From a virus: a stretch of DNA of 25,130 nucleotides. Shown here one piece after another: positions 7,647 to 25,130 of the stretch; position 1 is the stretch's first letter; the number at the start of each line of letters is the position of its first letter. A program made the position numbers and the translations under genes. The notes under the pieces were generated by a model, which saw only the letters and a program-made list of their open reading frames with translations, was not told the DNA's origin and ran no database searches. The stretch lies in the IMG/VR virus record IMGVR_UViG_3300017962_000105, positions 1 to 25,130 of that record; one strand, written 5' to 3'.

Positions 7647-9542
7647 ATGACACAAGATAACACAAAAAACAATCAGGTTACTAGAACGCAAGAGGATCCA
7701 AATGCGGCTAAAAAATATGGATTTAAAGTTGGTAGAATTGTAAGTCATTTAGATCCTCATTATATGGGATCATTAAAAGTAACATTAATCAATTTTGATA
7801 CAGCTGGTAATGAATTAGAAGATGAAGGCGAAACTGTTGATGTTGAATATGCTCCAGTGTTTTATGGAACTACACCTGCAGAACACCTGACTCCTGGTGA
7901 TACTTATGCTGACACACAACAAAGTTATGGTTTTTGGGCTGTTCCTCCTGATGTAGGTTCTAGAGTTTTATGTGGGTTTGTTGATGGTGATATTAATAGA
8001 GGCTATTGGTTTGCATGTATACAAGATAGATACATGAACTTTATGGTACCAGGAGCGCAACCAGCAACAGAATACTATAAAGGCAAACCACCTGAAGGAG
8101 TAAAAGGTAAAAAATTACCAACAGCTGAGTATAATAAAAAGACAGATGGCGATAAACAAAAAGATCCAACAAAAAATAAAAAAGCACTTAATCTTAAATT
8201 TATAGAAAAATTAAAAGAAAGCGGATTAGCTGAAGATGACATACGGGGTATAACCAGCACAAGTGCAAGACGTGAAATACCTAGTGCAGTTTATGGAATA
8301 AGTAGTCCAGGTCCTTTGGATAAAGCAGGTCCTAGGGCGCAACGTGGTACAAAAAATGGTAAAGCAATTGTTCCAAAAAGCAGACTAGGCGGACAAAGTA
8401 TCACAATTGACGACGGTGATGATAAAAGATTACGTAAAGGTCCTGCAGACAGCGTTCCTTATGAATATATTGATCAAGAAGCTAGTGGTGGAGGTGATAA
8501 AGCTATACCTCATAATGAAATGGTGCGTTTAAGAACACGTACCGGTCATCAAATATTACTTCATAATAGTGAAGATTTAATTTATATTTCAAATGGCAGA
8601 GGTACTAGCTGGATTGAACTTACCAGTAATGGTAAAATTGATATCTATGCACAAGATAGCATAAGTGTACACAGCGAAAATGATATAAATTTTGTTGCTG
8701 ATAGAGATATTAATTTAGAAGCAGGTAGAAATATTAATACAAACGCAGTGCAAAATCAATATCACACAGTTGGTAAAAATATTGAAAACCGTGTAGGAGA
8801 AACATACAAAACTAGTGCTGCAAAAAACATTGAACTATATGCAGTTAAAGACAATTTTGTAACAGCAGGAGAAAGAAATTTATTTAACAGTTATCTGCAA
8901 ACATATATTACAGCACTCCAAGATATGCACGTTTTAACAGAAAAAAATCTGTTTAGTCATTCATTTGAAAACACACATATCACAGCAGACAAAAGTGTAT
9001 TCATTAATGCAAAAGAAGGTTTTGAAGGTATTTCTGGTAGCGGAAGTATGAAATTAAAAGTTGGCAGCAATATGGAAATACTTGTAGCTGAAACTACTAA
9101 AATTACCAGTGGAGGAAATTTAGAAACACTTACAACTGGTAATACAAATATAACTAGTAGCGGAAATAGTAATATAAACAGCAAAGGACATTATGAAACA
9201 GCTAATCCGATACATATGAACGGTCCTACAGCAACTAAAGCAACAGCAGCTACAGAAGCAACTGAGGCAACTGTCTCAGAAGAATCAGAAATAATTGAAG
9301 AGGTTGCATTAGCAGCACTATTTCCTGCAAGAGTTCCACAACATGAGCCGTGGAGCGGCCATGAAAATTGGGATCCTATGGCAGTTACACCAGATAAAAC
9401 AGAAGCAAAACCAGATAGCCAAGATATTCACATTCCTGTTGAAGACGAATCAAGGCTTGCAACAGATCGATCATTGATTAGTGACGTTTGGGACAGCGGA
9501 GAAGGTATCAAATATCCTGAAATTCCAAAACGTGACAGATAA
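7647..9542 (+). CDS. 5: Baseplate central spike gp5 without lysozyme domain
   Basis: The 631-residue spike has three parts. An OB-fold domain (about 23-130) includes GFKVGRIVSHLDPHYMG and GSRVLCGFVDGDINRGYW, which in T4 docks the spike to the hub. A charged linker (about 145-290) contains TSARREIPSAVYGISSPG (204-221). A beta-helix (about 293-520) has octad-like repeats such as DINFVADRDINLEAGRNINT and forms the membrane-puncturing needle. A C-terminal extension holds PARVPQHEPW (560-569). T4 gp5 has a lysozyme domain of about 170 residues between the OB fold and the needle; no such domain or its Glu-Asp-Thr catalytic set is recognisable here. The ATG follows AAGGA by six bases, nine bases after the previous stop. 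Confidence 0.85.
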   Translation: MTQDNTKNNQVTRTQEDPNAAKKYGFKVGRIVSHLDPHYMGSLKVTLINFDTAGNELEDEGETVDVEYAPVFYGTTPAEHLTPGDTYADTQQSYGFWAVPPDVGSRVLCGFVDGDINRGYWFACIQDRYMNFMVPGAQPATEYYKGKPPEGVKGKKLPTAEYNKKTDGDKQKDPTKNKKALNLKFIEKLKESGLAEDDIRGITSTSARREIPSAVYGISSPGPLDKAGPRAQRGTKNGKAIVPKSRLGGQSITIDDGDDKRLRKGPADSVPYEYIDQEASGGGDKAIPHNEMVRLRTRTGHQILLHNSEDLIYISNGRGTSWIELTSNGKIDIYAQDSISVHSENDINFVADRDINLEAGRNINTNAVQNQYHTVGKNIENRVGETYKTSAAKNIELYAVKDNFVTAGERNLFNSYLQTYITALQDMHVLTEKNLFSHSFENTHITADKSVFINAKEGFEGISGSGSMKLKVGSNMEILVAETTKITSGGNLETLTTGNTNITSSGNSNINSKGHYETANPIHMNGPTATKATAATEATEATVSEESEIIEEVALAALFPARVPQHEPWSGHENWDPMAVTPDKTEAKPDSQDIHIPVEDESRLATDRSLISDVWDSGEGIKYPEIPKRDR

Positions 9543-9551
9543 GGGGGCAAT

Positions 9552-11078
9552 ATGAGTATTGTAAGAGACAGTAATGGAAATCCTGTTAGAGATAGTAGGG
9601 GCAATCCAGTAAGAAGTACACCACAAGTATTTGGTGTAAACAACGGAAGTGTAAGCACTGCTCCAATTGGCAATCCTTTAAGAGCAATAAACAATACTCT
9701 AAACGATTTAGGTATAAATTTAGGAGGCCAAAATTTAGATTTTCGTAGTGCGCAAAATTTTAGTCGACAAGCAAGCCAAACTGTTGTGAATACTTTAGGA
9801 AATAACGGGTCTGTAAATATTAACGCAAATGGTTTATTTGCTAGAGTAACTAAAGATAATGCTAGTTTTGGGTTTGATAACGGTAATGCAGGAGTTATAA
9901 TACAAGATGGTCAACTAGGAGGATTTAGAGTTGGTAGTGCTGGTGTAGGATTTCAAGATGGAAAGATACAAGGAATAACAGCAGGTCCATTAAGTTTGGG
10001 TTTTGATAGTAACGGCAATATCAGTGGAGGTAATATTACATCAGGTCCCCTTAGTTTAAGTTTAACCGAAGGCGGTATAAGTGGAGGAATAAACACAGGC
10101 CCATTAAATTTTCAATTTGGACCTCAAGGTATTACTAGCGGATCATTTAATGCAGGCGGAATAAGTGCTAGTTTTGGTCCAGGCGGTTTCGGAATAGGCG
10201 GCAGTGTAGGTGGACTAAACTTTAGTATAGGCAGCGGCGGATTTAATTTAAGTCTAGGCGGAAGTTACTTTGGCTTCGGCGGCGGAGGTCCTCATACAGT
10301 TGGCGGAAATGGCACAGGCGCAATAGATAGATATCAAAAAGAGAATCCTACCCAAGTAACCAATCCTGGAGAAAGTGCAGTTGAAATAACAATTGATACA
10401 TTTTTAAAAGGTGCTGGAGGAGCATCTGGTTTAGGAGGATTAATATCAGGCTTATTAGGAACAGTAGCTGGCGGCGCTTTGCTTGCAAACTTGTCAGGTG
10501 ATTTGCTAAAAGCAGTTGGAGGTGCGTCTGGAGCACTAGGTGATGCTTTAGGAAAATTAGGTGGTGCAATTGGCGATGTTGTAGGTGATTTTGCTGGAGG
10601 TTTAGGTGATGCATTAAATGGAATACCAGGCATAGGACCTTCATTATCTGCATTTGGCCAAGGAATTGGAAATTTAGTTGGTGAAGTTGGTGATGCAATA
10701 CTTGATGCGCCTACACCTGTACAAGATATTATAGCAGGTGCGTTTGCTTCAAAGCTAACAGGACAACCTATAGTTTTGACAGCAAACGAAAGAGGACAGA
10801 TTACAGCAGGTTTACAGTTTGATTCACCTATAGGTTCTTTAGCATTGAATTTAGGAGAAGCAACACGAACTCTAATTAATGGTGCAACAGACAATAATAT
10901 TACAAATACTGGTAGTCTTCTAACACTGACTAGTGCATCGAATAATTTATCTTTTATTGCAAATAATAACATAACAAGCACTGGAAGAATTGGCACTAAT
11001 GTATCACGCAATATTGTATTAGATCGCAATGGTAATCCTGTAACAGATAGTAGTGGAAATGCAGTAACTAGTGGATAG
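9552..11078 (+). CDS. Glycine-rich repeat protein next to the gp5 spike, unknown function
   Basis: I do not recognise a named family. The 508-residue product has four visible parts. Tandem DSxGNPV motifs occupy residues 6-21. A beta-type repeat block at 123-238 holds six units of 19-20 residues, each a pair of short strands around Gly/Asn turns (for example TSGPLSLSLTEGGISGGIN). A Gly/Ala-rich hydrophobic block at 285-385 has many GxxxG spacings and few charges. A C-terminal part ends with another tandem DRNGNPVTDSSGNAV (491-505). It lies between gp5 and gp25 with GGGGG four bases before its ATG, so it is probably a virion protein of the hub or spike tip. A PAAR-like tip protein (as T4 gp5.4) or a membrane-active protein are possibilities; neither is shown. 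Confidence 0.8.
   Translation: MSIVRDSNGNPVRDSRGNPVRSTPQVFGVNNGSVSTAPIGNPLRAINNTLNDLGINLGGQNLDFRSAQNFSRQASQTVVNTLGNNGSVNINANGLFARVTKDNASFGFDNGNAGVIIQDGQLGGFRVGSAGVGFQDGKIQGITAGPLSLGFDSNGNISGGNITSGPLSLSLTEGGISGGINTGPLNFQFGPQGITSGSFNAGGISASFGPGGFGIGGSVGGLNFSIGSGGFNLSLGGSYFGFGGGGPHTVGGNGTGAIDRYQKENPTQVTNPGESAVEITIDTFLKGAGGASGLGGLISGLLGTVAGGALLANLSGDLLKAVGGASGALGDALGKLGGAIGDVVGDFAGGLGDALNGIPGIGPSLSAFGQGIGNLVGEVGDAILDAPTPVQDIIAGAFASKLTGQPIVLTANERGQITAGLQFDSPIGSLALNLGEATRTLINGATDNNITNTGSLLTLTSASNNLSFIANNNITSTGRIGTNVSRNIVLDRNGNPVTDSSGNAVTSG
9573..9611 (+). repeat. 39-base repeat, copy at the 5' end of the glycine-rich gene
   Basis: These 39 bases match 11028-11066 at 33 positions when compared by eye, without gaps and in the same codon frame. 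They encode the NGNPVRDSRGNPV motif. Confidence 0.7.
9918..10265 (+). repeat. Six tandem 19-20-residue beta repeats in the glycine-rich protein
   Basis: Units begin at residues 123, 143, 163, 182, 201 and 220. A typical unit is a Gly-Pro/Gly, then a strand of alternating small and large residues (LSLGF, LSLSL, LNFQF, ISASF, LNFSI), a Gly/Asn turn, and an Ile-Ser-Gly strand. The regular length suggests a beta-roll or solenoid stacked along an axis. Confidence 0.7.
11028..11066 (+). repeat. 39-base repeat, copy at the 3' end of the glycine-rich gene
   Basis: Direct-repeat partner of 9573-9611 with six mismatches. It encodes the NGNPVTDSSGNAV motif just before the stop codon, so the same motif closes both ends of the protein. 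Confidence 0.7.
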
Positions 11079-11089
11079 GTAAATACGTT

Positions 11090-11518
11090 ATGGTACAAAA
11101 AATATATAAAAATACTTCTGTAGGAACTAACACAAAACAATCACCTGTAAAAAGCAAATCTTACAGAGGAGTTAGTACTGTTAACCGTCCTAAAAAGTTT
11201 AAAATTTATGATTTAGAATTAATAAAACAAGATATATTAAATCATTTTCATATACGTCAAGGTGAAAAACTTGAAAATCCTACTTTTGGAACAATCATAT
11301 GGGATATACTTTTTGAACCATTAACTGATGATTTAAAATTAGCAGTTGAAAAAAATGTTACAGATATAATCAACTATGATCCTAGAGTAAGTGTTGATAA
11401 AGTTGCTATAGATAGTTACGAAAATGGCATACAAGTTGAAGTGCAACTTACATATCTTCCTTACAGTATAAGCGAACAACTTAAATTAAGATTTGATCAA
11501 AATGCAGGTTTAATTTAA
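11090..11518 (+). CDS. 25: Baseplate wedge subunit gp25
   Basis: The 142-residue product belongs to the GPW/gp25 family, which together with gp6 forms the core of the baseplate wedge and primes sheath assembly. An unstructured basic N-terminus (about 1-36) precedes the conserved domain, with DLELIKQDILNHFHIRQGEK (41-60), NPTFGTIIWDILFEPL (63-78) and a C-terminal LKLRFDQNAG. The length is close to T4 gp25 (132). The ATG is 11 bases after the stop of the glycine-rich gene; AGGT overlapping that stop codon is the only ribosome-binding candidate, at a 9-base spacing. The gene lies just ahead of gp6, its binding partner. Confidence 0.92.
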   Translation: MVQKIYKNTSVGTNTKQSPVKSKSYRGVSTVNRPKKFKIYDLELIKQDILNHFHIRQGEKLENPTFGTIIWDILFEPLTDDLKLAVEKNVTDIINYDPRVSVDKVAIDSYENGIQVEVQLTYLPYSISEQLKLRFDQNAGLI

Positions 11519-11571: not shown

Positions 11572-14500
11572 ATGGCTATAACTGATAGACAAAACAAATT
11601 GCTCAAAGCTGAAGATTGGAAGCGTATATATCAAACTTTCCGTAACGCTGATTTTAAGAGCTACGATTTTGACAATCTACGCAGAACAATGATTAACTAT
11701 CTGCGTGAAAACTATCCTGAAGATTTTAATGATTATATTGAAAGCAGTGAATATATTGCATTAATAGATTTGATTGCATTTTTAGGACAAAATATCAGCT
11801 ATCGTGTTGATCTTAATGCAAGAGATAACTTTATAGAACTTGCCGAACGTAGAGAAAGTGTGTTAAGACATGCACGTCTTTTAAGTTATAATCCAAAAAG
11901 AAACAAGCCTGCAAACGGTTTATTAAAAATTGTAAGCGTTAGCACAACAGAATCTATAATTGATAGTAATAATATTAATGTTGCTAACCAAAGTATACTT
12001 TGGAATGATAATACAAACTCTAATTGGCAAGAACAATTTACAAGAATTTTAAATGCTGCACTACCGGCACAAAATGGTATTGGTAAACCACTAAAAGATG
12101 GCAGCGTTAACGGTGTATCAACACAGCTTTATAGATTTAATGGAACAAGTAATACTGTTCCTGTTTATGAATTTTCAAAATCAATTGATAATAAAAAAGA
12201 AAGTTTTGAAGTTGTAAGCACCAATTTTGACAATAATAAAATATATGAGGAAGCGCCATTACCTGGTAATAACTTAGCATTTTTATATAGAGATAATGGC
12301 CAAGGCCCTGGTAGTACAAACAGTGGATATTTTTTACATTTTAGACAAGGTAAACTTTTAAACAACCAATTCCGTTTAGATGTAGCTGCACCGCATGAAA
12401 CCGTTGATGTAAACACAGCAAACATCAATAACGATGATGTTTGGCTTTACAAATTAAATACTGATGGCAACGAATCAGATTTATGGAATAAAGTTGATGC
12501 AGTAGAAGGCAACAACATTGTTTACAATAGTTTAGAAAAAAATATAACAAATATTTACACTGTGTTAACAAAAGTAAACGATACAGTAAGTCTTGTTTTC
12601 AGTGATGGTGTTTTTGGCACTATTCCAAAAGGTAATTTTAGAATTTATTATAGACAAAGTGCTAATCGTCCAATTAGAATTATTCCTGCAGAATTTACTG
12701 GTGTAAATGTAGTTGTACCTTATATTAGTAAAGCAGGAAAAGTAGAAAAGATTTCTTTAGTTCTTGAACTACAAAGCACTATTACAAATGCTACAACTAG
12801 CGAAACTAATGCTAGTATTAAACAAAATGCACCTTCAAATTATTATACACAAGATAGATTGATAACTGGTGAAGACTATAATGTTGGTCCTTTAAGTGTA
12901 AGCCAAGAAATTGTAAAAACCAAAAGTGTTAACCGAACTAGTAGTGGTGTTAGTAGATATTTTGATTTGAGAGATTCTACAGGAAAATATAGCAATACTA
13001 ATTTGTATGGCAACGACGGTTTAATATATAGAAATTATTTAAATGAAAAATTAAACTTTGAATTTGTTAATCAAACTGACATTGAATTTTTTGCTAGGAA
13101 TACAATTATTGAACTTATAAAAAATAGTAAAATGCGTAATTACTATTTAGATAAATTTCCTAGAAATGAAACTATTGCAAATTTTGGATTGACCTGGAAT
13201 AAAGAAACATTTGATTTAAATCGTTGTACTGGTAAATTTATTGATACTGATGGTATTACTGCTACTCTTGGTAGTTTTACAAGTGGACTTTTAACATATA
13301 TTAAACCTGGTGCTTATTTGAAATTTGAAGCACCTGTAGGATATTATTTCGATAGCACTGATAATAATAAACTTAAACAGGGCACTGCAACTGTTAAAGG
13401 TGCTATAACATATAAATGGATAAAAGTTATTAGTGTATTTGAAAATGGAACTACTAACGATCCAGATACTAATTTAGGTCCTGTAATTATTAATGATAAC
13501 ATTGAAACTGGCAGTAAGCTAGTAGAAATTATCCCAGTTCTTACAAAATCATTAGATGACGATACAATTAATTTGTTTGTAGAGCAGATGTTTGCTTTTA
13601 AACGTTTTGGATTACGTTATGATTTTGAAAAAAGCAGATGGGATATAATACTCGATAAAGATTTAAGTTCTAGCCAAGAATTTAGTTTAAGTAGTACCGG
13701 AGATATATCTGGAAGAAACTTAGATGGCAGTTGGCTAATATTGTTTGAAAACAACGGTGTATATTATACTGTTACATATAGAGGTTTAAAATACATATTC
13801 AGTAGTTTAGACGAAATACGTTTTTACTTTGATAAAGTTGATAAAATCTATGATAGCAGAACACAAAGAATTGTAAAAGATAAAATACAAATTTTAAATA
13901 TTAATAATAAACCTTTTGCTCTAGATTATTTTACAACTGACATTGATTGGCAAATAGTTTCTGATTATATTAATATTGACAATTATGTTGATAGCACTAA
14001 AATAGAAATTGACTTTTTTGATTCAGACGACGATGGTGTTGTAGATAATCCTGATATTTTTACTGATTTTGTTGCTATAGATAATAATAGTTACGTTTAT
14101 GAAAAGAAAATGTCTACCGGAGATACCGAAGCGTTTTATGCGATAGATAATGCTGTCGAAGGTATTATTGATACGTTTGAACTAGAACAAAACATCGGTG
14201 CTTTAAGTCAATATGATGAAGGTACAGTATTCTATTTTAGATCCACTGATATTTTTAAAAGGTTAGAAAGTAATAGACTAATTATTGATGATAGATATAG
14301 AGCGTATATCGGAAGAGATAATATTAAGTTTAGATATTATCATGCTGCTAATGAGAATCGCAGATTAGATCCAAGTGTATCAAATATGATTGATACATAT
14401 CTTTTAACTAGATCTTATGATACAGAATATAGGAAATGGATAGGCAATGAAATCAGTGATAAACCGTTGCCTCCAAGCAGTGATGAATTGTTTATCCAAT

Positions 14501-14997
14501 ATGGACAAGAAATTAATCAACGCAAAAGTATCAGTGACGAAGTAATATATGATCCTGTAAAATACAAAGCATTATTTGGTAGTAAAGCACCGGTTGATTT
14601 ACAAGCAAAAATTAAAATTGTAAAAAACAATGAACAAGTATTAAATGACAATGATATTAAGGCACGTGTAGTTTCTGCTATTAATACATTTTTTAGTTTA
14701 GAAAATTGGGACTTTGGAGAAACTTTTTATTTTAGTGAATTATCTACTTACATAGTTTCAACATTATCTCCTGATATTGCAAGTATAGTTTTAGTTCCAG
14801 TACAAGAAAATCAAAGTTTTGGAAGTTTATATGAAATCAAAGCAGAAAGTGATGAAATATTTGTAAGTGCAGCAACAGTTAATGACATTGAAATTATTGA
14901 TGCAATTACAGCAACACGCTTAAAAGCCACAGGCACAATTGTTACCGCAACTAACACACAAAACGTTAATATTCAAAGCAGTACATTAAGTGAATAA
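11572..14997 (+). CDS. 6: Baseplate wedge subunit gp6 (baseplate J-like), enlarged
   Basis: gp6 forms the inner ring of the baseplate wedge with gp25 and gp53 and dimerises to join neighbouring wedges. The N-terminus is the recognisable part: KAEDWKRIYQTFRNADFKSY (about 11-30), DLIAFLGQNISYRVDLNARD (67-86) and ERRESVLRHARLLSYNPKR (about 92-110). A C-terminal block beginning KARVVSAINTFFSLENWDFG (about 1027) ends in the baseplate-J-like fold. At 1,141 residues it is far longer than T4 gp6 (660). The added middle includes a DSDDDGVVDNPD loop (817-828) that looks like a calcium-binding EF-hand-type loop. The ATG is preceded by AAAGGAA and a late-type promoter. The stop TAA is followed at once by an in-frame TAG. 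Confidence 0.88.
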   Translation: MAITDRQNKLLKAEDWKRIYQTFRNADFKSYDFDNLRRTMINYLRENYPEDFNDYIESSEYIALIDLIAFLGQNISYRVDLNARDNFIELAERRESVLRHARLLSYNPKRNKPANGLLKIVSVSTTESIIDSNNINVANQSILWNDNTNSNWQEQFTRILNAALPAQNGIGKPLKDGSVNGVSTQLYRFNGTSNTVPVYEFSKSIDNKKESFEVVSTNFDNNKIYEEAPLPGNNLAFLYRDNGQGPGSTNSGYFLHFRQGKLLNNQFRLDVAAPHETVDVNTANINNDDVWLYKLNTDGNESDLWNKVDAVEGNNIVYNSLEKNITNIYTVLTKVNDTVSLVFSDGVFGTIPKGNFRIYYRQSANRPIRIIPAEFTGVNVVVPYISKAGKVEKISLVLELQSTITNATTSETNASIKQNAPSNYYTQDRLITGEDYNVGPLSVSQEIVKTKSVNRTSSGVSRYFDLRDSTGKYSNTNLYGNDGLIYRNYLNEKLNFEFVNQTDIEFFARNTIIELIKNSKMRNYYLDKFPRNETIANFGLTWNKETFDLNRCTGKFIDTDGITATLGSFTSGLLTYIKPGAYLKFEAPVGYYFDSTDNNKLKQGTATVKGAITYKWIKVISVFENGTTNDPDTNLGPVIINDNIETGSKLVEIIPVLTKSLDDDTINLFVEQMFAFKRFGLRYDFEKSRWDIILDKDLSSSQEFSLSSTGDISGRNLDGSWLILFENNGVYYTVTYRGLKYIFSSLDEIRFYFDKVDKIYDSRTQRIVKDKIQILNINNKPFALDYFTTDIDWQIVSDYINIDNYVDSTKIEIDFFDSDDDGVVDNPDIFTDFVAIDNNSYVYEKKMSTGDTEAFYAIDNAVEGIIDTFELEQNIGALSQYDEGTVFYFRSTDIFKRLESNRLIIDDRYRAYIGRDNIKFRYYHAANENRRLDPSVSNMIDTYLLTRSYDTEYRKWIGNEISDKPLPPSSDELFIQYGQEINQRKSISDEVIYDPVKYKALFGSKAPVDLQAKIKIVKNNEQVLNDNDIKARVVSAINTFFSLENWDFGETFYFSELSTYIVSTLSPDIASIVLVPVQENQSFGSLYEIKAESDEIFVSAATVNDIEIIDAITATRLKATGTIVTATNTQNVNIQSSTLSE
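14020..14055 (+). other. DxDxDG calcium-type loop in gp6
   Basis: Residues 817-828 of gp6 read DSDDDGVVDNPD, with acidic residues at loop positions 1, 3, 5, 9 and 12 and Gly at 6. This is the spacing of EF-hand, dockerin and thrombospondin type 3 calcium loops. No second loop was found beside it. Confidence 0.5.
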
Positions 14998-15014: not shown

Positions 15015-18000
15015 ATGGCATATAACGACCAGCAACAAGAATTTCCAGTTGGTGATAACAGGAAGAAGAGTAGCAAATTTTTACCTCGTTATTTTAGAAC
15101 AAGTACCAATGAAAAACTTACAGGTTCTACTATAGACCAACTTTTTTCAACAGGCGCAGTTGAAAAAATAAATGCATTTGTAGGTAGAAAAAACGCCAAA
15201 GCTAATATTAACAACAGCACTTATCTTACAGAAATAAACTCATTAAGACAAAATTATCAGTTAGATCCTAGTATCAATATCAAAGATGATTTGGATAATG
15301 TTGTATTTCATAAAGATTACATTGACTATATTGGTCAATTAAACAGTTTTTACAGTAATACAAAAAATCAAAGCAAATTAAATGAACAAGAAATATATTC
15401 TTGGAATCCAAATATTAACTTTGATATGTTTACAAATTTCCGTGAATACTATTGGTTACCAAATGGGCCTCAAACAGTTACAGTTACAGGTAATCAAAGA
15501 AACGTAGTAAGCACTTACAAAGTAAGTGTTGTAGATGACGGTGATAATTTTGCATATGTTTTTACTCCTGATAAACTTACTAGAAATCCACTACTTACAT
15601 TATACAAAGGACAAACATACAGATTTGAAATTAATACTCCGGGACATCCTTTTGCATTTGCAATAAGTAGAGAATTTTTACCTGGTTTAACATATGAAGA
15701 CAGTGTTAGAAATGAAAGCACACTTTATACAACTGGAATTACAACTACAAATGCAGATGTTGATGGATATGTAGAAAATGGTATTATAGAATTCACAATT
15801 GCAGATAACACACCAGATAGTTTATTTTATATTAGCAAAGAAGATATTAATACAAGTGGACTTCTTAATATAGCAAGTATTGAAGAAAACACAGTATTAG
15901 ATGTTGATAAAGAAATAGTAGGAAAAACAACATATACTACAGGGCAAGGCTGGAGTTTGAGCAACGGTATGAAAATTACTTTTGCAGGAAATATTACACC
16001 AGAAAAGTATTCTTCGGGTGAGTTTTATGTTGAAGGTGTTGGAAAAGAAATAGTACTTATACCACTGGAAGATTTAACAACTGTAGATTTATTATCAGAT
16101 GACGAGAATGTTCCATTTGATGTATATGGATTTGATAGATTGCCGTGGAGTACTACAGTAGGATATCCTGCGGTAAAAGATTACATTATTAGTAATAGAT
16201 CAAGTAAAGATAAAAATCCTTGGGCACGTTATAACAGATGGTTCCACATTAGTGTCATCAATGAAAGTGCAAATATTAACAAACAGGATTATATTTTACC
16301 TGAAAATAGTAGAGCAAAACGTCCTATCATTGAATTTGCTCCTGGTATTAAAATGTGGCATAATGGAACAGTATGCAAAACACCTATTGATTTAATTGAT
16401 GATTGGACAAAAGACGTATTTTCTATTATAGAGGGCAGAGAAGGTTATAATATTGATAATGTCGATGTTGTGGATGGAATGCGTATCTTGTTTACAGCTG
16501 ACACAGATCCTCAAGTTAAAAATAAAATTTACAAAGTAGAATTTATAAAGTTTCAAAACAAAACACAAATTTCTTTAGTAGAAGAGCCAGATGCTTTACC
16601 AAATGAAGATGAAATAGTTTTAGTTACTAGCGGAAAAATAAATTCTGGAAAACAGTATTTTTATACAAATGGATCGTGGAAAAAAGCACAAGAAAAAATC
16701 AGTGTAAATCAAACTCCGTTGTTTGATATGTTTGATGAAAATGGAATTTCTTATGGTGATGAATTCTATACAAGCAATGACTTTGTAGGAAACACAATCT
16801 TTTCATATAAGCAAGGGTCGGGATCAAACGATAGTGAATTAGGATTTCCAATAAGTTATAAAAATATTGATAATGTTGGTGATATAGTTTTTGAATTTAA
16901 TTTGTTAAAACAAGTTAACACTTATATTGTAGATGATGAAACAGTAAACTTACCGTCAAACAAAGGTTTCCTAAAAATCACAGACAGTTATAATGCTGAA
17001 GAAAGTTTTACAAATGCTTGGAAAAAGCACTATAAGAAAAGTTCTCAAGCAGTAATATTGGATTATCAAGGCAATGAGCAAACAAACAATTACGAAATCA
17101 ACTGTTTTGAAAAAAGCGAAAGATTAAATGATTTACAATTAAAAGTATTTACAAATCGTAAATTTTTGAAACTAGGCACAGATTATACCCTAACTGCAAA
17201 TGCTAGAGAAAATGTTGTTATTAATTTAGTAGAAGATATTGCTGAAAATGACAGACTTATAATCAAGTGTTATAGTGAATCTGAAAAAAATTCTAATGGT
17301 TATTATGAGACTGCATATAACCTTGAAAGAAATCCTAATAATTTGGATGTTACTGAATTTACTATTGGCGAAGTAAATGATCATGTTCAAACAATTGTTG
17401 AGAATATTGACAACTTTAACGGAATACATCCAGGTGTAGGAAATTTACGAGATTTAGGACCTATAGAAATTTATGGTGATAGATTTGTTACACATTCAGG
17501 ACCAATTGGATTACCGTTATATCATTTAACATCAAAAGAACACAATGTTGTAAACAGTATAAAACTGGCATTAAGAGAATATAGTAAATTCAAAAGAGAG
17601 TTTTTAAGAATTGCCACATATGATGGATATAATAATACAATTGTAAAACATGTTGATTATTTGTTAGGTCAGTTTGCAAGTAGCAAAACTCGTAGTGATG
17701 CGTTTTATGATAGTGATACTGTGCCATTTGGCGGAAAAAATATAATCGAATATACAGTTTTAGATGCAGGAAATCCTTATTATCCATTAACTACAGCGTT
17801 CGATATAACATCACTTAGCTCTAAAGCAGTTTTGATTTACAAAAACGGTGTACAATTATTATATGGTATTGATTATGAATTTACTACCGAAGGATTTGTA
17901 TATATTTTTACAGTTCAAAATGATGATAAAATTGAAATACACGAATATGAAACAACCGATGGTTGTTTTGTTCCGCCTACTCCTAGTAAGTTAGGACTAT

Positions 18001-21000
18001 ATCCATTATACGAACCAAAAATTTATGTTGATACTTCTTATAGTACTCCTACCAAAGTAGTTAGAGGACACGATGGAAGTAGAACTGTTGCATTTGATGA
18101 TTTTAGAGATGAATTGCTTTTAGAATTAGAGAAAAGAATCTTTAATAATGTTAAAAATAGATATGACGCAGAAATTTTTAATATCTATGATTTTGTACCA
18201 GGACGTTACAGAAACACTGGATTAAGTCAAAAAGATATAGATTTTATTCTTATCGCAGATTTTATAAATTGGACTAATGTTTCTCAGGTTTACGATTATC
18301 AAGAAAACAAATACAGTGATATAAATGATTCTTTTTCATACAATTATAAAGTTTCAAGCGACATTGATGGAAATAGATTAGAAGGCTTTTGGAGAGCTGT
18401 ATATAAAAATGCGTATGATACAGATACTCCTAATTTAACACCTTGGGAAATGTTAGGTTTTACTGTACAGCCAACTTGGTGGGAAAGTGTTTACGGTCCT
18501 GCGCCTTATACATTAGATAACATTCCATTATGGAAAGACTTAGAAGCAGGTATAATTAGAGAACCAAATAAACTAATTAGAAAAAATGTAAAATTTGCTC
18601 GTCCTAATCTTACAAAACAAATACCAGTTAACGAAAATGGGCAGTTGAGAAGTCCTTTTGAAACTGGATTTGCAAAAGATTTTAGTTTTGCAAATCAAAT
18701 TGGATACAGTCTTGAATTTGGTGATCAAGGACCTGCTGAAACAGCATGGCGTAGAAGTAGCGAATATCCATTTAGTTTAATTACAGCACTATTGTTACTT
18801 AGACCTGCACAAATTTTTGGTTTAACTTATGATAATAGTAAAATTAAGAAAAACTTAGCAGGAAATATAGTTTACAATGATGCCGGAATAAGAACTTCTA
18901 AAATTGATTTCGATAATCTTACTAGTGGATTAATAAATTATATCAAAGGATTAATCAATTTTAAAAGCATGTCTTTTGAAAAATATAAAGATGATGTTAA
19001 AAATATAAGTTTTAATTTAAGTTTTAGACTTGCTGGCTTTAGTGATAAAGAAAAAGTAAATCTTGTGTTAGACAGTAAAACTCCTAACAGCAGCGGCGAC
19101 ATATTTACGCCTCAAGAAAATTACAATTTATTTTTAAAAACTAGCAGTCCATATGATGTAGCTACTTATAGTGGTGTTGTAATAGAAAAAGTTGCAACTG
19201 GATATAATATAAGAGGTTACGATAGATATAATCCGCAATTTACATATTATGATGTTATACCATCAAATAATGATCCGTTTTTCACAGTAGGAGGTATAAG
19301 CGAAACATTTAGTAATTGGACAAGTGAAAAATTATATGTTGCAGGTGGAATTGTTAGATTTAGTGACGTTTACTACAGAGTTAACGAAACACACACAAGT
19401 GGAAATGATTTTGATAATACAAAATTTAGCAAGTTAGCAGAATTGCCAACTGTTGGTGGTAGAACAGCAAGATTTAGTAAAAGATTTTCAACTCAAAAAT
19501 CTACTCTCCAATATGGTACAGTTTTAAAAACTTATCAGCAAGTTGTAGATTTTCTTTTAGGATATGATAGATACTTACAAGAAATTGGATTTGAATTTGA
19601 CTACAATAATTCAAATTACGGAATTGTTGAAAACTTTAGACTAAGTGCAAAAGAATTCTTGTTTTGGACTACACAAAACTGGGGCGAAAATAGTGTAATA
19701 AGTTTATCACCTAGTGCAAACCAAATAAAATTTAAAAGAAATTTCTACTTACCCGACAGCTTGTATGATGGTATTTTTGACTATGAAATACTAGATCAAG
19801 ACGGTAAATTGCTTTCTAATGAATTTGTTAATTTGGTTAGAGATACAGACAATACTTTTAGTTTAGCAAGTAACGATGAAAATATAGGTGTTTACTTTGT
19901 AAGACTATTCTTAGTTCAAAAAGAACATTGTATTGTTATAGATAATAACACTGTTTTTGCTGATACTATCTATAATGAAACAAGTGGATATAGACAAGAG
20001 AGAATCAAAGTAGTTGGTTATAAAACAGCAGATTGGAGTGGTACATTAAATATTCCAGGATTTGTGTTTGACGAACCTAAAGCAACAAAATGGAAAAGTT
20101 ATGCTGATTACATAATTGGTGATGTAGTACAATATAAAGACAAATATTATACAGCTATATTAAGTCATACGAGTGCAGAATTCTTTAATGCTACAAATTG
20201 GACTATCTTAAGTGAAAAGCCAACTAATCAGCTAATACCAAACTTTGATTACCGTGCAAGTCAATTTGCTGATTTTTATGACCTAGATACAGATAATTTT
20301 GATACAGAACAACAAAGGTTAGCACAACATCTAATTGGATATCAAAAAAGAGAATACCTAAAAAATATAATCAACGATGATATTAGTCAATACAAATTCT
20401 ATCAAGGAATGATACAAGACAAAGGCACTAAAAATGTTTTAACAAAATTGTTTGACAAATTAAGTGCTGCTGATAAAGATAGCATTGAGTTTTTTGAAGA
20501 ATGGGCTATTAGAGCAGGACAATATGGTGCTACAGATAGTTTTGATGAGTTTGAAATTACTATAGATGAATCTAAATATAAGTTATCACCTCAACCCTTT
20601 GAATTAGTTAAATCTGTTGATAGAACAAGAACTGATTTTATCTATCAAGTTCCTACAACTGATATAGAAATTAAACCTTTAAATTATAATGAAACTATTT
20701 TTGAATACAAAGATTATGAAGAAATTACTAAAACAGCTGGATATGTAGCACCGGCACAAATAGACTTTATCACATCTGGTATAGATCAACTTCTTGGTTT
20801 TGATATAAATTTAGTTACACAAGGACAGTATGTTTGGGTAACTGAAGATGGACTAGATTGGAGTGTTTACGAATTTGTTAAAAAAGATTATCAAGTTGAA
20901 CGTATTGTAAAAACTCTTACAGGTTTTAAAGTTTTCTTTGATAAACAACACGATTTATCACCTAACGATGTTATAGGCTTGACAAATATTACTGATGAAC

Positions 21001-24000
21001 TTGACGGATTTAGACAAGTAATATATACTGGATATAAAGAAGTAGAATTTTACACAGAATCAGACATTGCTGAAGATGAAATTAATTTAGAAGATAGTAG
21101 CAAAGGTATTGTACTTAAAGTTGCATCGAGAAGATTTAATGATATTGATTCTTGTAATACAAATTTAACAGTTACAGACGTATCTGATGGTAAAAAAGTA
21201 TGGATTGACAATATTGGAAATAACAAATGGTCAGTATTAGAAAATAAATCTGTATTTGATGTTGAAGATATTATTGTAAATCCGCAAACAGGATTAAAAA
21301 CTAACTTTGCAGATGCTATTGCTGTAGATCAAACAAACACCAGACTTGCTATAGGTGATCCTAATAGCAATGGCAGAGTTATAGTTTATAGTCGTATTGG
21401 TGAAAACGGAGACTTTACATCTACTGAAAATTATCAAGCAGATACAGCAATAGTAGGAAACAACAGCAGATTTGGTGCAAGTTTAGCTATGTCACCAAAT
21501 GGAGACTACTTGTTTGTTGCAGCGCCAAATGCTGCAAACTTAAACACTAGATTCAAAGGTAATATTTTATCAGGCACCAGTTATAGTGCAGGTGATATTG
21601 TTAATGACCGAGGTACACTCTGGAGAGCTAAAGTAGATATTGATGGTAGTGATACAAGTACAATTAATAAACTTAGCCAAGATTGGGAAGTTGCGCCGTT
21701 AATCGAAGTTGATAATGATGGCAGTTCAACAGCATCAGTAAGTGGTGCAGTTTCAATTTATAAAAAAGCCGAAGTAGGAACAACATATGAATTACAAACC
21801 ACAATTGTAAGCCCAGACCCTACAGCCGCAGAGCAATTTGGCAGAATTGTAAAGTGTAGAAAAGACTTAGACGGTATTTTACGTTTGTATATTGCTAGTA
21901 ATGTAGCTGAAGGTAGAATATATTTCTTTGATAACGATACCGAAGATGGAAGTTTTAAATTCAGCAAAGATAACAATTATAGAGGTAGTTTTTCTGTTGC
22001 AGAAAATTATGTCGAAGGTGAAATAGTCTGGTATAATACTACTGGTGGTGCCGACGGAGATAGTAACTTATATCGTGCTACTAAAGATTTACCGGCTCAA
22101 ACATTTAATTCAGCATTTTGGGAAGTATTAGATGTTTATGTAGATTATAAAGGATATATTCCACCACAAATTAACTTGTTAAAAGAAGAAAGCGATAATC
22201 TTGGTGTTGCAGATGGATTTGACATTGCTACTGACTTTGATGTAAGTTTAGATGGCGAAGTAATTATAGTTAACGGCGAAGATGTTCTTAATACAAATAA
22301 AGTTAGCATATACAGAAGAGTTGATAACAGATACGCTTATTACGAAACTATTGAAACAAATGATATAGGCGAAGACTTTGGAAGAAATATTGCGGTCAGT
22401 GCAAACGGAAAAGCAATAGCAATATCGGCGATAAGAAATGATGACTTAGGAACCGATTATGGTGCTGTATATGTTTACAGATACAATGGAAACGAATATG
22501 CACTCACACAAACTCTTTATCCGCCAACTGGCAATGATGGAGAATTGTTTGGTATTGATTTAAACTTCAGCGATGAAAACTTAATCATTGCTAGTGCAAA
22601 TGGATTTAGATCTAATCCAACATTGTTTGATCAAACGTTAATCCGTGTTGAAGATACAACATTTGACAATAACACAACCAAGTTCTTTAATAAATTTGAA
22701 AATGGCGGAACTATATACATTTTCCAAAATTTCAATAACAACTATTTGTATGCTGAAGAATTGGATTGGAACTACAACACAAAAGGCAGTTCGACTCCAA
22801 TCTTATTAAGTAATTTTAATCACATTTATATAGGGTATCCTAGATTAGAATACACAGCAGATTACGGTGTTGTTGTTAATTTAAAAAGAGATAAAACAAA
22901 ATATACTTGGAACAAATTATCGGAACAAATTGACACACCAGATATTAATAAAATTAAACGTGCATTCTTGTTTGATAAAACCAACAATGATATAATTACA
23001 TTCCTTGATGTTGTGGATCCGATCCAAGGAAAAATAGCAGGTCCAGCAGAAGAAGCTATTGATTTAAAACTTGCATTTGATCCTGCAAGTTATTCTGTAG
23101 ATGTAACCAATAACAACAACCAAGATTTTTGGGCTAGTGAATTTGTAGGTACATATTGGTGGAATACTGGATCTACTAAGTGGTATAATCCTTATCAAGG
23201 TAATGCAGAAAACCAAACAAGTTTTTGGAATAAATTAATTCCTAATAGTACTACAGAAGTTTACGAATGGGTAGAGTCAGATTACTTGCCAAGTGAATGG
23301 GACGAACTTGCAGATACAAACGACGGTATCATAGAAGGCATCAGCGGTATTAGTAAATATGGAGATTTTAAATACAGTGTTGGTCGTAAATTTAATAGTG
23401 TAACAGAAACATTTGAAACAAAGTATTATTTCTGGGTGCAAAACAATAAGCTTCGTACAAGCGAAAACAAAAAAATTAGTTCTTATGATGCACAACAATT
23501 AATAGTAGATCCTCAAGGATCAGGATATAGATTCATGAGTGCCTTAAGCACTGATAAATTTGCATTGCATAACGTAGGTTCTTTAATAAAGGATAAAGAT
23601 GTTGCTTTACACATTGATGTTTACAAAGGTGAAATAAACGATAGAAATATTCACACTGAATATAAACTTTTAAGTGAAGGATTAGCAGGAAGTAATCCAC
23701 CAGAAACATTTATTAATAAATGGATTGATAGCTTAGTAGGTTATGATGTTAATAACAGACCAGTACCTGATCCTGATTTAGGCGAAACTAAAAAATACGG
23801 CATTGAAAATCGTCCAAGACAAGGTTTATTTAGGAACAATTTAGAAGCACTGAAACAAACTTTAGAAAGAACAAACTATATTTTAAGACAACAAATTATT
23901 ACTGATTTTAAAGATATAGACGACTTGTTCAAAGAAGATCAAAAACCTAGATTGTTAGAAGGCTTATTTGATGTTGAAGTTGATACAGTTGATGATATAA

Positions 24001-25130
24001 CAACAATAGGGGTAGCAAATACTAAACAAGCAACACTGACTCCTGTATTAGAAAATGGTAGACTTGTAAGTGTTATTGTAGATGACAGAGGGTATGGTTA
24101 CAAATCTGCACCCCAAGTAACTGTTACAGGAACAGGCACAGATGCAGAAGTACAAGTAACTATCGATAATGTTGGCAGAATTAGTTCTGTGAAAATTGTT
24201 AATCAGGGTAATAATTATTCTTCTATGAACTTGTCAGTCCGTCCATTTAGTTTATTAATAAATTCTGATGCAGAACTTAATGGTAAATGGGCAATTTATG
24301 ATTATGATTATAATGGCAACTTTGAAAGAGTAAAATATCAAAGGTGGACTGTTCCAAGTTACTGGAACTACAGCGATTGGTATGAAACAGGATATGATGC
24401 AAATACAGCTATTGATTACTTAATAGATGGTAGCTATCAGTTAGACAGTATTAACGATACAATTGGCGATGTTGTTAAAATCAAAGATGTTGGAACAGGT
24501 GGATGGTTGTTGTTACAAAAAATAGATGTCCAACCAGAAGTTGACTACACTGTAAACTACAAAACTATAGGACGTCAAAATGGTACTATACAGTTTAGTA
24601 GTAGATTGTATCAAAATACAAATTTTGGTTTTGATAAAATCGGATTTGATAATTTAGTGTACGATACTGAACCAGTTAATGAAAGACGTATTATATTAGA
24701 AACACTAAGAGATAAAATTCTAATAGATGATTTAGAATTAAAATTCAATGAAATACTGTTTACAGGTATTAGATATGCATTGTATGAGCAACAAACAGTG
24801 GATTGGATATTTAAAACTAGCTTCTTAACAGCAAAACACAATGTAGGCGAATTAGATCAAAGAATCAACTTTAAATCAGATAATCTTGATAGTTACAAAG
24901 ATTTTATTAGTGAAGTTAAACCTTACAGTAGTAAAATTAGAGAATACATCAGCGCATATGATAAAGTAGAAAATTCTCAAACTATGATAAGTGATTTTGA
25001 TTTACCTCCTAGATATGATCAGATTCAAAACAAAATTGTTACCGAAACAGTAAAATTCTACAATGAAAGAATTGTAGGAGATAGAGAATTTATTGATACA
25101 TATCCTCAAAAGAATTGGCTTGAAAATTAC
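15015..25130 (+). CDS. Giant baseplate wedge-associated protein at the gp7 position, partial (no stop in window)
   Basis: An open frame runs from ATG 15015 to the last base, at least 3,372 codons; the 3' end lies outside the window. AGAGGAA lies about nine bases before the ATG, just after the gp6 stops. Visible parts: a conserved N-terminus (KFLPRYFRTSTNEKLTGST, about 21-39; FREYYWLPNGPQ, about 141-152); a cupredoxin-like domain (about 165-290); a large region with NPWARYNRWFH (about 402) and a PWEMLGF...PTWWESVYGP block; four CBM5/12-like modules near 1435, 1693, 2184 and 2322; FG-GAP-like propeller blades (about 2097-2579); a GxGY module (about 3008-3078); and a conserved segment with VDWIFKTSF and GELDQR near the end. 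No signal peptide or membrane span was seen. The order after gp6 points to gp7, the wedge initiator (1,032 residues in T4), but the T4 match is positional. It may serve as a peripheral wedge and receptor-binding protein. Confidence 0.85.
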   Translation, partial: MAYNDQQQEFPVGDNRKKSSKFLPRYFRTSTNEKLTGSTIDQLFSTGAVEKINAFVGRKNAKANINNSTYLTEINSLRQNYQLDPSINIKDDLDNVVFHKDYIDYIGQLNSFYSNTKNQSKLNEQEIYSWNPNINFDMFTNFREYYWLPNGPQTVTVTGNQRNVVSTYKVSVVDDGDNFAYVFTPDKLTRNPLLTLYKGQTYRFEINTPGHPFAFAISREFLPGLTYEDSVRNESTLYTTGITTTNADVDGYVENGIIEFTIADNTPDSLFYISKEDINTSGLLNIASIEENTVLDVDKEIVGKTTYTTGQGWSLSNGMKITFAGNITPEKYSSGEFYVEGVGKEIVLIPLEDLTTVDLLSDDENVPFDVYGFDRLPWSTTVGYPAVKDYIISNRSSKDKNPWARYNRWFHISVINESANINKQDYILPENSRAKRPIIEFAPGIKMWHNGTVCKTPIDLIDDWTKDVFSIIEGREGYNIDNVDVVDGMRILFTADTDPQVKNKIYKVEFIKFQNKTQISLVEEPDALPNEDEIVLVTSGKINSGKQYFYTNGSWKKAQEKISVNQTPLFDMFDENGISYGDEFYTSNDFVGNTIFSYKQGSGSNDSELGFPISYKNIDNVGDIVFEFNLLKQVNTYIVDDETVNLPSNKGFLKITDSYNAEESFTNAWKKHYKKSSQAVILDYQGNEQTNNYEINCFEKSERLNDLQLKVFTNRKFLKLGTDYTLTANARENVVINLVEDIAENDRLIIKCYSESEKNSNGYYETAYNLERNPNNLDVTEFTIGEVNDHVQTIVENIDNFNGIHPGVGNLRDLGPIEIYGDRFVTHSGPIGLPLYHLTSKEHNVVNSIKLALREYSKFKREFLRIATYDGYNNTIVKHVDYLLGQFASSKTRSDAFYDSDTVPFGGKNIIEYTVLDAGNPYYPLTTAFDITSLSSKAVLIYKNGVQLLYGIDYEFTTEGFVYIFTVQNDDKIEIHEYETTDGCFVPPTPSKLGLYPLYEPKIYVDTSYSTPTKVVRGHDGSRTVAFDDFRDELLLELEKRIFNNVKNRYDAEIFNIYDFVPGRYRNTGLSQKDIDFILIADFINWTNVSQVYDYQENKYSDINDSFSYNYKVSSDIDGNRLEGFWRAVYKNAYDTDTPNLTPWEMLGFTVQPTWWESVYGPAPYTLDNIPLWKDLEAGIIREPNKLIRKNVKFARPNLTKQIPVNENGQLRSPFETGFAKDFSFANQIGYSLEFGDQGPAETAWRRSSEYPFSLITALLLLRPAQIFGLTYDNSKIKKNLAGNIVYNDAGIRTSKIDFDNLTSGLINYIKGLINFKSMSFEKYKDDVKNISFNLSFRLAGFSDKEKVNLVLDSKTPNSSGDIFTPQENYNLFLKTSSPYDVATYSGVVIEKVATGYNIRGYDRYNPQFTYYDVIPSNNDPFFTVGGISETFSNWTSEKLYVAGGIVRFSDVYYRVNETHTSGNDFDNTKFSKLAELPTVGGRTARFSKRFSTQKSTLQYGTVLKTYQQVVDFLLGYDRYLQEIGFEFDYNNSNYGIVENFRLSAKEFLFWTTQNWGENSVISLSPSANQIKFKRNFYLPDSLYDGIFDYEILDQDGKLLSNEFVNLVRDTDNTFSLASNDENIGVYFVRLFLVQKEHCIVIDNNTVFADTIYNETSGYRQERIKVVGYKTADWSGTLNIPGFVFDEPKATKWKSYADYIIGDVVQYKDKYYTAILSHTSAEFFNATNWTILSEKPTNQLIPNFDYRASQFADFYDLDTDNFDTEQQRLAQHLIGYQKREYLKNIINDDISQYKFYQGMIQDKGTKNVLTKLFDKLSAADKDSIEFFEEWAIRAGQYGATDSFDEFEITIDESKYKLSPQPFELVKSVDRTRTDFIYQVPTTDIEIKPLNYNETIFEYKDYEEITKTAGYVAPAQIDFITSGIDQLLGFDINLVTQGQYVWVTEDGLDWSVYEFVKKDYQVERIVKTLTGFKVFFDKQHDLSPNDVIGLTNITDELDGFRQVIYTGYKEVEFYTESDIAEDEINLEDSSKGIVLKVASRRFNDIDSCNTNLTVTDVSDGKKVWIDNIGNNKWSVLENKSVFDVEDIIVNPQTGLKTNFADAIAVDQTNTRLAIGDPNSNGRVIVYSRIGENGDFTSTENYQADTAIVGNNSRFGASLAMSPNGDYLFVAAPNAANLNTRFKGNILSGTSYSAGDIVNDRGTLWRAKVDIDGSDTSTINKLSQDWEVAPLIEVDNDGSSTASVSGAVSIYKKAEVGTTYELQTTIVSPDPTAAEQFGRIVKCRKDLDGILRLYIASNVAEGRIYFFDNDTEDGSFKFSKDNNYRGSFSVAENYVEGEIVWYNTTGGADGDSNLYRATKDLPAQTFNSAFWEVLDVYVDYKGYIPPQINLLKEESDNLGVADGFDIATDFDVSLDGEVIIVNGEDVLNTNKVSIYRRVDNRYAYYETIETNDIGEDFGRNIAVSANGKAIAISAIRNDDLGTDYGAVYVYRYNGNEYALTQTLYPPTGNDGELFGIDLNFSDENLIIASANGFRSNPTLFDQTLIRVEDTTFDNNTTKFFNKFENGGTIYIFQNFNNNYLYAEELDWNYNTKGSSTPILLSNFNHIYIGYPRLEYTADYGVVVNLKRDKTKYTWNKLSEQIDTPDINKIKRAFLFDKTNNDIITFLDVVDPIQGKIAGPAEEAIDLKLAFDPASYSVDVTNNNNQDFWASEFVGTYWWNTGSTKWYNPYQGNAENQTSFWNKLIPNSTTEVYEWVESDYLPSEWDELADTNDGIIEGISGISKYGDFKYSVGRKFNSVTETFETKYYFWVQNNKLRTSENKKISSYDAQQLIVDPQGSGYRFMSALSTDKFALHNVGSLIKDKDVALHIDVYKGEINDRNIHTEYKLLSEGLAGSNPPETFINKWIDSLVGYDVNNRPVPDPDLGETKKYGIENRPRQGLFRNNLEALKQTLERTNYILRQQIITDFKDIDDLFKEDQKPRLLEGLFDVEVDTVDDITTIGVANTKQATLTPVLENGRLVSVIVDDRGYGYKSAPQVTVTGTGTDAEVQVTIDNVGRISSVKIVNQGNNYSSMNLSVRPFSLLINSDAELNGKWAIYDYDYNGNFERVKYQRWTVPSYWNYSDWYETGYDANTAIDYLIDGSYQLDSINDTIGDVVKIKDVGTGGWLLLQKIDVQPEVDYTVNYKTIGRQNGTIQFSSRLYQNTNFGFDKIGFDNLVYDTEPVNERRIILETLRDKILIDDLELKFNEILFTGIRYALYEQQTVDWIFKTSFLTAKHNVGELDQRINFKSDNLDSYKDFISEVKPYSSKIREYISAYDKVENSQTMISDFDLPPRYDQIQNKIVTETVKFYNERIVGDREFIDTYPQKNWLENY
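15507..15885 (+). other. Cupredoxin-like domain of the giant protein
   Basis: Residues about 165-290 show the pattern of cupredoxin-like modules seen in marine phage structural proteins: PLLTLYKGQTYRFEINTPGH (192-211), then an ENG..EFTI strand and LFYIS (270-274). His211 is retained. The position where copper-binding members have Cys is Ile273 and the expected following His and Met are absent, so copper binding is unlikely. Confidence 0.55.
19317..19440 (+). other. CBM5/12-like module, copy 1
   Basis: Residues 1435-1476 follow the family pattern: an initial Trp, then Y-x-x-G-x-x-V (YVAGGIV), an aromatic pair (VYYRV), and HTSGNDF. The closing Trp is replaced by Phe (TKFSKL). Confidence 0.5.
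20091..20215 (+). other. CBM5/12-like module, copy 2
   Basis: Residues 1693-1734 are the best copy: WKSYADYIIGDVVQYKDKYY, then HTSAEFF and a closing NWTIL. The spacing of Trp, YxxGDxVxY, YY and the final Trp fits the chitin-binding type 3 pattern. Confidence 0.6.
21564..21702 (+). other. CBM5/12-like module, copy 3 (inside the propeller)
   Basis: Residues about 2184-2230 read SYSAGDIVNDRGTLWRAKV, then a Asp/Ser-rich loop and a closing DWEVAP. The YxxGDxV core and final Trp are kept, with a longer loop than copy 2. Confidence 0.5.
21978..22134 (+). other. CBM5/12-like module, copy 4 (inside the propeller)
   Basis: Residues about 2322-2373 read NYVEGEIVWYN, LYRATKD, then FNSAFWEVLD. The core YxxGxxVxY, the second aromatic and the closing FW are kept. 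Confidence 0.55.
24036..24246 (+). other. GxGY beta module near the end of the window
   Basis: Residues about 3008-3078 hold two copies of a strand pattern: GRLVSVIVDDRGYGYKSAPQ with VTVTGTGTDAEV, then GRISSVKIVNQGNNYSSMNL. The form G-x-V-x-x-V-x-V-x-x-x-G-x-x-Y recurs in phage and marine surface proteins; its function is not known to me. Confidence 0.5.

Follow-up and report, generated by a model that had tools for sequence, protein, structure and literature searches.

CBM5/12-type modules and a predicted integrin-like propeller in a giant protein of a T4-type baseplate gene cluster

The window analysed here, 25,130 bases of one IMG/VR virus record, carries a T4-type baseplate gene cluster on the + strand, in which genes for gp53-like, gp5-like, gp25-like and gp6-like proteins are followed by a giant open reading frame (ORF) at 15015..25130 (+ strand). 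The giant ORF encodes 3372 amino acids (aa) in the window, is open at its 3' end and belongs to the virion structural protein family phrog_10938 (3.7e-293). Locus L018 is identical to the window over the shared stretch and supplied the full giant of 4528 aa. The original prediction had placed four copies resembling carbohydrate-binding modules (CBMs) of families 5 and 12 near residues 1435, 1693, 2184 and 2322 of this protein. The four copies are real, as Pfam, a family profile and controls agreed, and copies 3 and 4 lie in a predicted propeller that the original prediction had not noticed. The family comprises 435 loci in IMG/VR, and the best 80 of the 435 were used. Dereplication (93% identity, 85% coverage) reduced 88 giants to 51; conservation was counted over the 43 metagenomic giants, leaving the 8 cultured ones aside.

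With the giant starting at 15015, residue 1435 corresponds to base 19317. All four copies are on the + strand and were read directly from the translation. Copy 1 (19314..19442, residues 1434-1476) reads W1435...YVAGGIVRF..YYRV...FDNTKF and copy 2 (20088..20216, residues 1692-1734) W1693...YIIGDVVQY..YYTA...FNATNW. The degenerate copy 3 (21552..21692, residues 2180-2226) reads I2184...YSAGDIVND..LWRA...DW2224, and copy 4 (21978..22133, residues 2322-2373) YRGSF2326...YVEGEIVWY..LYRA...FNSAFW2369. The pattern W...YxxGDxVxY...YxA...FN..xW, which all four copies had been said to share, is complete in copy 2 and incomplete in copies 1, 3 and 4; two of the four have the opening W and three the closing W.

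The assignment to family 5/12 held in profile searches. PF02839 (CBM_5_12) matched the whole giant with 36.3 bits (cut-off 26.2, E 5.5e-9). By position, copy 2 was above the cut-off (28.4 bits), copy 1 (23.8) and copy 3 (15) were below it, and copy 4 had no PF02839 match of its own. A family hidden Markov model (HMM), for which just copies 1 and 2 served as seed and which was iterated over the 51 giants, found all four copies in L018 with independent E-values (i-E) of 8e-18, 2e-17, 1e-5 and 6e-9, and no fifth copy in the full 4528-aa protein. In all, it detected 180 modules. Since the sequences counted were also those on which the model was iterated, its E-values for relatives lack independence, unlike the Pfam scans and the shuffled controls. 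Of 46 modules, taken from the window and from 16 loci and scanned one at a time, 37 matched PF02839 at E <= 0.1, and a PDB search with the profile built from these 46 modules gave matches to CBM12 domains. No family-HMM domain below i-E 1e-2 was found in 204 reversed or shuffled giants. A chance or low-complexity resemblance, to which the weak Pfam scores of copies 3 and 4 might point, is refuted by this control; the recurrence of the copies at the same sites among relatives and the matches of the predicted fold also speak against it, and its probability is negligible.

We modelled residues 1250-1800 with AlphaFold2 on an alignment of 39 rows (43 listed). The mean predicted local distance difference test score (pLDDT) was 68.5, with about 84-90 in copy 1 and 86-88 in copy 2. 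Copy 1 matched CBM12 domains of Vibrio chitin oligosaccharide deacetylases (9jeo_A, 3wx7_A; VIA Z 7.1, 1.2 Å over 45 residues) and also matched ChiA1 (1ed7; Z 4.9, 1.6 Å over 40 residues). Copy 2 matched ChiC (1wvu_B; VIA Z 5.6, 2.5 Å over 46 residues). Many of the top matches were CBM12 domains of chitin deacetylases and chitinases. The Z values are modest because the domain is tiny, and Foldseek gave E-values >0.05 with a probability near 1.0. The largest Z (7.6, 8fqc_P1) came with a root-mean-square deviation of 31 Å, since two modules in a different relative position were aligned together; single-module rows are therefore quoted for the fold. According to the model, copies 1 and 2 have the small three-stranded CBM5/12 fold that had been proposed for all copies. 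For copies 3 and 4 the fold was judged by strand order within the propeller model only.

This second model covered residues 2050-2660 on an alignment of 33 rows (of 40) and reached a pLDDT of 83.7 and a predicted template modelling score of 0.85. Its best structure matches were integrin alpha heads (7usl_A, Z 33.8, 3.6 Å over 348 residues), and Foldseek agreed. Pfam FG-GAP_2 scored 22.4 bits on the giant, just below the cut-off of 23. Residues ~2079-2635 (21249..22919, + strand) are thus predicted to fold as an integrin-alpha-type seven-bladed FG-GAP propeller. Comparison of the strand list of the model with the sequence placed copy 3 in a blade loop, after the strand that ends with VAAPN, and copy 4 between two blades, in a second propeller loop. 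A propeller profile matched (E < 1e-10) 43/43 metagenomic giants and 0/8 cultured ones, 33 of these sequences having been used to build the profile. By tblastn the region had no match at E <= 0.01 in 50,697 phage records, and PHROG likewise gave none. In BFVD, structure matches showed such propellers in giant viruses and some phages, so that the propeller as such is not new in viruses. In the giant of L089, a further CBM5/12-like stretch (YSGGQVVYAYGAYRQC...W) was seen by eye in a third propeller loop (alignment A2, columns 501-560).

Copy 3 is itself interrupted in most relatives. In 29 of 42 intact relatives (the truncated L049 was omitted) the distance from YxA to the closing W is 473-738 aa, compared with 20 in the window, and most of these relatives kept the closing W. 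Examples of the insertion are L083:12479-13957 and L052:12186-14372. Pfam found no family in any of five inserts scanned, and two inserts tried against PHROG gave weak matches only (E 0.14-0.28). The propeller and its inserts could be taken as an integrin-like adhesion head on the baseplate, in which the blade loops would be sockets for CBM5/12 modules that accept domains of ~460-730 aa. A single wedge protein would then present a modular ligand-binding head, much as some integrins do with the inserted alphaI domain. We consider this an unlikely reading.

We also asked how the copies are inherited. Copies 1 and 2 were found at fixed sites in 43/43 metagenomic relatives. For 175 of the 180 modules the best match in another genome was the module at the same site (copy 1 46/47, copy 2 43/43, copy 3 29/29, copy 4 41/41), the five exceptions being single or divergent copies. 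These partners indicate that the copies are old and were inherited in place. Extra modules occur in other relatives near residues 227 (11/51), 2570 (5/51) and 5168 (1/51). In 8/8 cultured relatives a short linker with a clean junction replaces copy 2. Four of them (Vibrio phage 2.275, CBB, 121Q and RaK2) lack copy 1, and the other four have it; by the family HMM, CBB, 121Q and RaK2 contain no copy of the module. The clean loss of copy 2 and these three copy-free phages would suit inert spacers, that is, remnants of domain insertion that lengthen the protein and have no specific partner or ligand. Against this, copies 1 and 2 are present in all metagenomic relatives with many invariant residues and are too conserved for filler, which makes inert spacers quite improbable.

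Ten positions are invariant (43/43): W1435, F1466, W1693, D1698, Y1699, K1708, Y1712, F1724, W1729 and P1736. They are the fold-defining aromatics plus D1698, K1708 and P1736. In chitin- and cellulose-binding modules the sugar is held by surface aromatics, such as W687 of ChiA1 and W479/Y481 of ChiB. CBM5 presumably carries its ligand aromatics in the stretch after YxA; in the giants, no position among residues 1715-1719 of this stretch is aromatic in more than three of 43 relatives. A search for rapid change at exposed aromatics had also been proposed. For the conserved aromatics the outcome was negative: they are among the most invariant positions, and the entropy of the copies is near that of their surroundings. 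Mean column entropy was 1.67, 1.37, 1.97 and 1.96 for copies 1-4, compared with 1.46 over the whole protein. Flanking values were 1.41, 1.25 (between them) and 0.53 for copies 1 and 2, and 1.90, 2.05 and 1.91 for copies 3 and 4. Identity to the two nearest relatives was 72/67% for copy 1, 79/77% for copy 2, 86/86% for copy 3 and 63/67% for copy 4, compared with 70-87% in the remaining segments. In these alignments there is no burst of change at the aromatics, but copies 1 and 4 lean towards the variable end. (Two further alignments, A5 and A7, had 24 rows each.)

The giant had been called a baseplate protein. Gene order supports this and homology does not: the gene lies directly after the gp6-like gene, which is the position of gene 7 in T4, and is placed in the baseplate by inference from this order. 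The same succession recurs in cultured relatives that have an annotated wedge gene. These relatives are jumbo phages, e.g., PA5oct, Atu_ph07, Phosso, SCTP-2, CBB, 121Q and RaK2, and in most of them the upstream neighbour is annotated as baseplate wedge; the exceptions are an unnamed large ORF in SCTP-2 and a gene annotated CBM5/12 in a Vibrio phage. In the latter, Vibrio phage 2.275.O (L009:1389-5252), the neighbour in gp6 position carries the annotation carbohydrate-binding module family 5/12, so the module occurs in the adjacent gene too. The PA5oct homologue of the giant bears a mass spectrometry note. A stretch FYQGM..DKGT..LF..EEWA..GQYG (20397..20528, residues 1795-1838, + strand), present in all 24 rows compared, is shared with the cultured jumbo relatives in the highly conserved form FYxGM..KGT..L...EEWA..GxYG; by eye it recalls the KGT stretch of wedge proteins, and profile comparison with T4 gp7 was unsupportive. 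When residues 1-1249 and 1480-2060 were each searched by profile against the PDB, one search came back empty and the other had only three weak CBM-type matches, and hhalign of either region against seven gp7 sequences gave a probability of about 0.1 with shallow profiles. The giant as a homologue of T4 gp7 was dropped, and only the term gp7 position was kept. Pfam found no enzyme family in residues 1-3372 or in L018 residues 3373-4528, and an NCBIfam scan gave nothing useful. CAZy permits exceptions to the rule that a CBM lies within a carbohydrate-active enzyme.

The other genes of the cluster, all on the + strand, fit a T4-type baseplate. The gp53-like gene had a weak Pfam score (19.5 bits, cut-off 21). 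It is followed by a gp5-like hub/spike protein (7647..9542; phrog_13211, 4.2e-46), a gp25-like wedge protein (11090..11518; PF04965, 33.8 bits, cut-off 27.2) and a gp6-like wedge protein (11572..14997; phrog_10646, 2.8e-281; phrog_219, 2.4e-23). Between the gp5-like and gp25-like genes, 9552-11078 encodes a repetitive 508-aa protein rich in glycine and asparagine, which had no match in Pfam and PHROG scans. On the - strand, opposite to the baseplate genes, 6-431 encodes a GIY-YIG endonuclease of the SegE type (PF19835, 117 bits). The source is an uncultured marine T4-type phage that is kin to jumbo phages. Bacterial genome contigs were searched for related loci as a clue to the host, and no relative was found.

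We then compared the modules with solved particles. The 46-module profile matched chains of contractile particles (Milano gp124, 8fqc_P1, 1.2e-12; 9rkv_M, 1.7e-12; 7b5h_AE of the Anabaena contractile injection system, 3.4e-5) and also chitin-active enzymes, an F2-pyocin and a proximal subunit of a long tail fibre. In the Milano tail spike the match covers 28-118, and the fold matches concur. The N-terminal part of this spike serves as its tail-binding module; it is lodged between BW2 and BW3, and two proline-rich stretches of it contact the wedge (PMC10811340). Going by the numbering in that paper, these stretches fall in loops of the two Milano modules, and the loop TKDLPAQTFNSAFW of copy 4 resembles one of them by eye. 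In the Anabaena contractile injection system, Cis13 binds the baseplate through its N-terminal domains (PMC8894136), and the joint domain 111-215 of the short-fibre protein gp33 of phage A-1(L) binds the wedge periphery (PMC10966104). Our fold match to A-1(L) was 8kec_a at 134-184; judged by chain length this is probably gp33, and the match would then lie inside the joint domain. The fold matches also include T4 gp23/gp24, and a "chitin-binding-like" domain of the T4 capsid bridges neighbouring subunits (PMC3185693).

On balance we think it probable that the four beads of CBM5/12 fold on this giant wedge-like tail protein are protein-protein docking or spacer modules and not sugar-searching feet. 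Docking is favoured because of the fixed sites, the invariant fold aromatics, the nested insertion in copy 3 and the use of the fold for docking in solved particles. Copies 1 and 2 are small insertions into the scaffold close to the conserved KGT stretch; they would act as braces or give adjacent wedge or fibre proteins a place to dock. Set in propeller loops, copies 3 and 4 would project from the propeller, and in relatives copy 3 can carry a further domain of ~460-730 aa.

Several points weigh against docking. In the named solved fibres the module belongs to the fibre and not to the wedge, and neither the PDB profile searches nor hhalign supported homology of the giant to T4 gp7. Copies 1 and 2 vary somewhat more than their flanking stretches, and copies 1 and 4 are below the average identity of the protein to its two closest relatives. 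An additional aromatic stands at 1696 of copy 2 in 43/43 relatives (W32 Y10 F1), and the conserved F (1466/1724) aligns with a W of the Vibrio deacetylase CBM12 domains; both leave room for an aromatic sugar platform. The wedge protein Gp119 of phage Vp4, which has CBMs of other families, binds cells and a CBM-free homologue does not (PMC11406892).

The original prediction had inferred multivalent weak glycan binding, in which four modules per chain allow a reversible search on a cell surface, here taken as host surface polysaccharide, or on polysaccharide particles. This reading stays alive because of the aromatic at 1696 and the cell-binding Vp4 wedge; the PF02839 score above the cut-off and the many best fold matches to CBM12 of chitin deacetylases and chitinases also favour it. 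It is opposed by the near absence of aromatics at the presumed CBM5 ligand positions, by the interruption of the corresponding loop of copy 3 in 29 of the 42 intact relatives, by the lack of any general acceleration of change and by the docking role of the fold in solved particles. In addition, a neck-fibre CBM of A-1(L), of a family not stated in the source, is reported not to have bound host cells. Glycan search is plausible, and we regard it as possible though doubtful.

In the literature covered, which left most subscription journals outside, we found no account of CBM5/12 modules in this giant family and no integrin-like propeller in a phage baseplate. Matches to CBM5/12 in phage structural proteins are readily taken as glycan binding. 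In this family, with its 435 loci, docking is favoured by position, by conservation and by solved relatives, and simple assays could tell it apart from glycan binding. An integrin-like head, if confirmed, would add a receptor-like architecture to contractile-tail baseplates.

Among known systems, the enzymes with PF02839 domains (ChiA1 1ed7, 4ny2/3wx7, 1wvu) share with the giant the profile match and, for copies 1 and 2, the predicted fold at 1.2-2.5 Å. In contrast to these enzymes, the modules of the giant are not joined to a recognisable enzyme, copies 3 and 4 score below the cut-off, and F is found where the deacetylase CBM12 domains have W. Integrin alphaM, alphaX and alphaL carry an alphaI domain inserted in the propeller. 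The giant resembles the integrin alpha propeller in its predicted fold and in having extra domains in blade loops, but its inserts are CBM5/12-type modules of ~45 aa. In Pseudomonas phage PAC2 (PP408249.1), a relative of PA5oct, a protein of the same family is annotated "chitin-binding type-3 domain-containing protein" under the match; PA5oct differs from the window in having one copy, at the copy-1 site, and no propeller match. Gp119 of the Bacillus phage Vp4 is similar in that CBM folds were added to a wedge protein and are missing from a close homologue, while its CBMs belong to other families and its binding to cells was demonstrated (PMC11406892). Milano gp124 (8fqc) and the fibre of phage 7-7-1 (9rkv) each have two modules that match the same profile. 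Milano gp124 also shares the FDxxxW loop type, which contacts the wedge in Milano; its modules are on a trimeric spike, whereas those described here are on a giant protein in wedge position.

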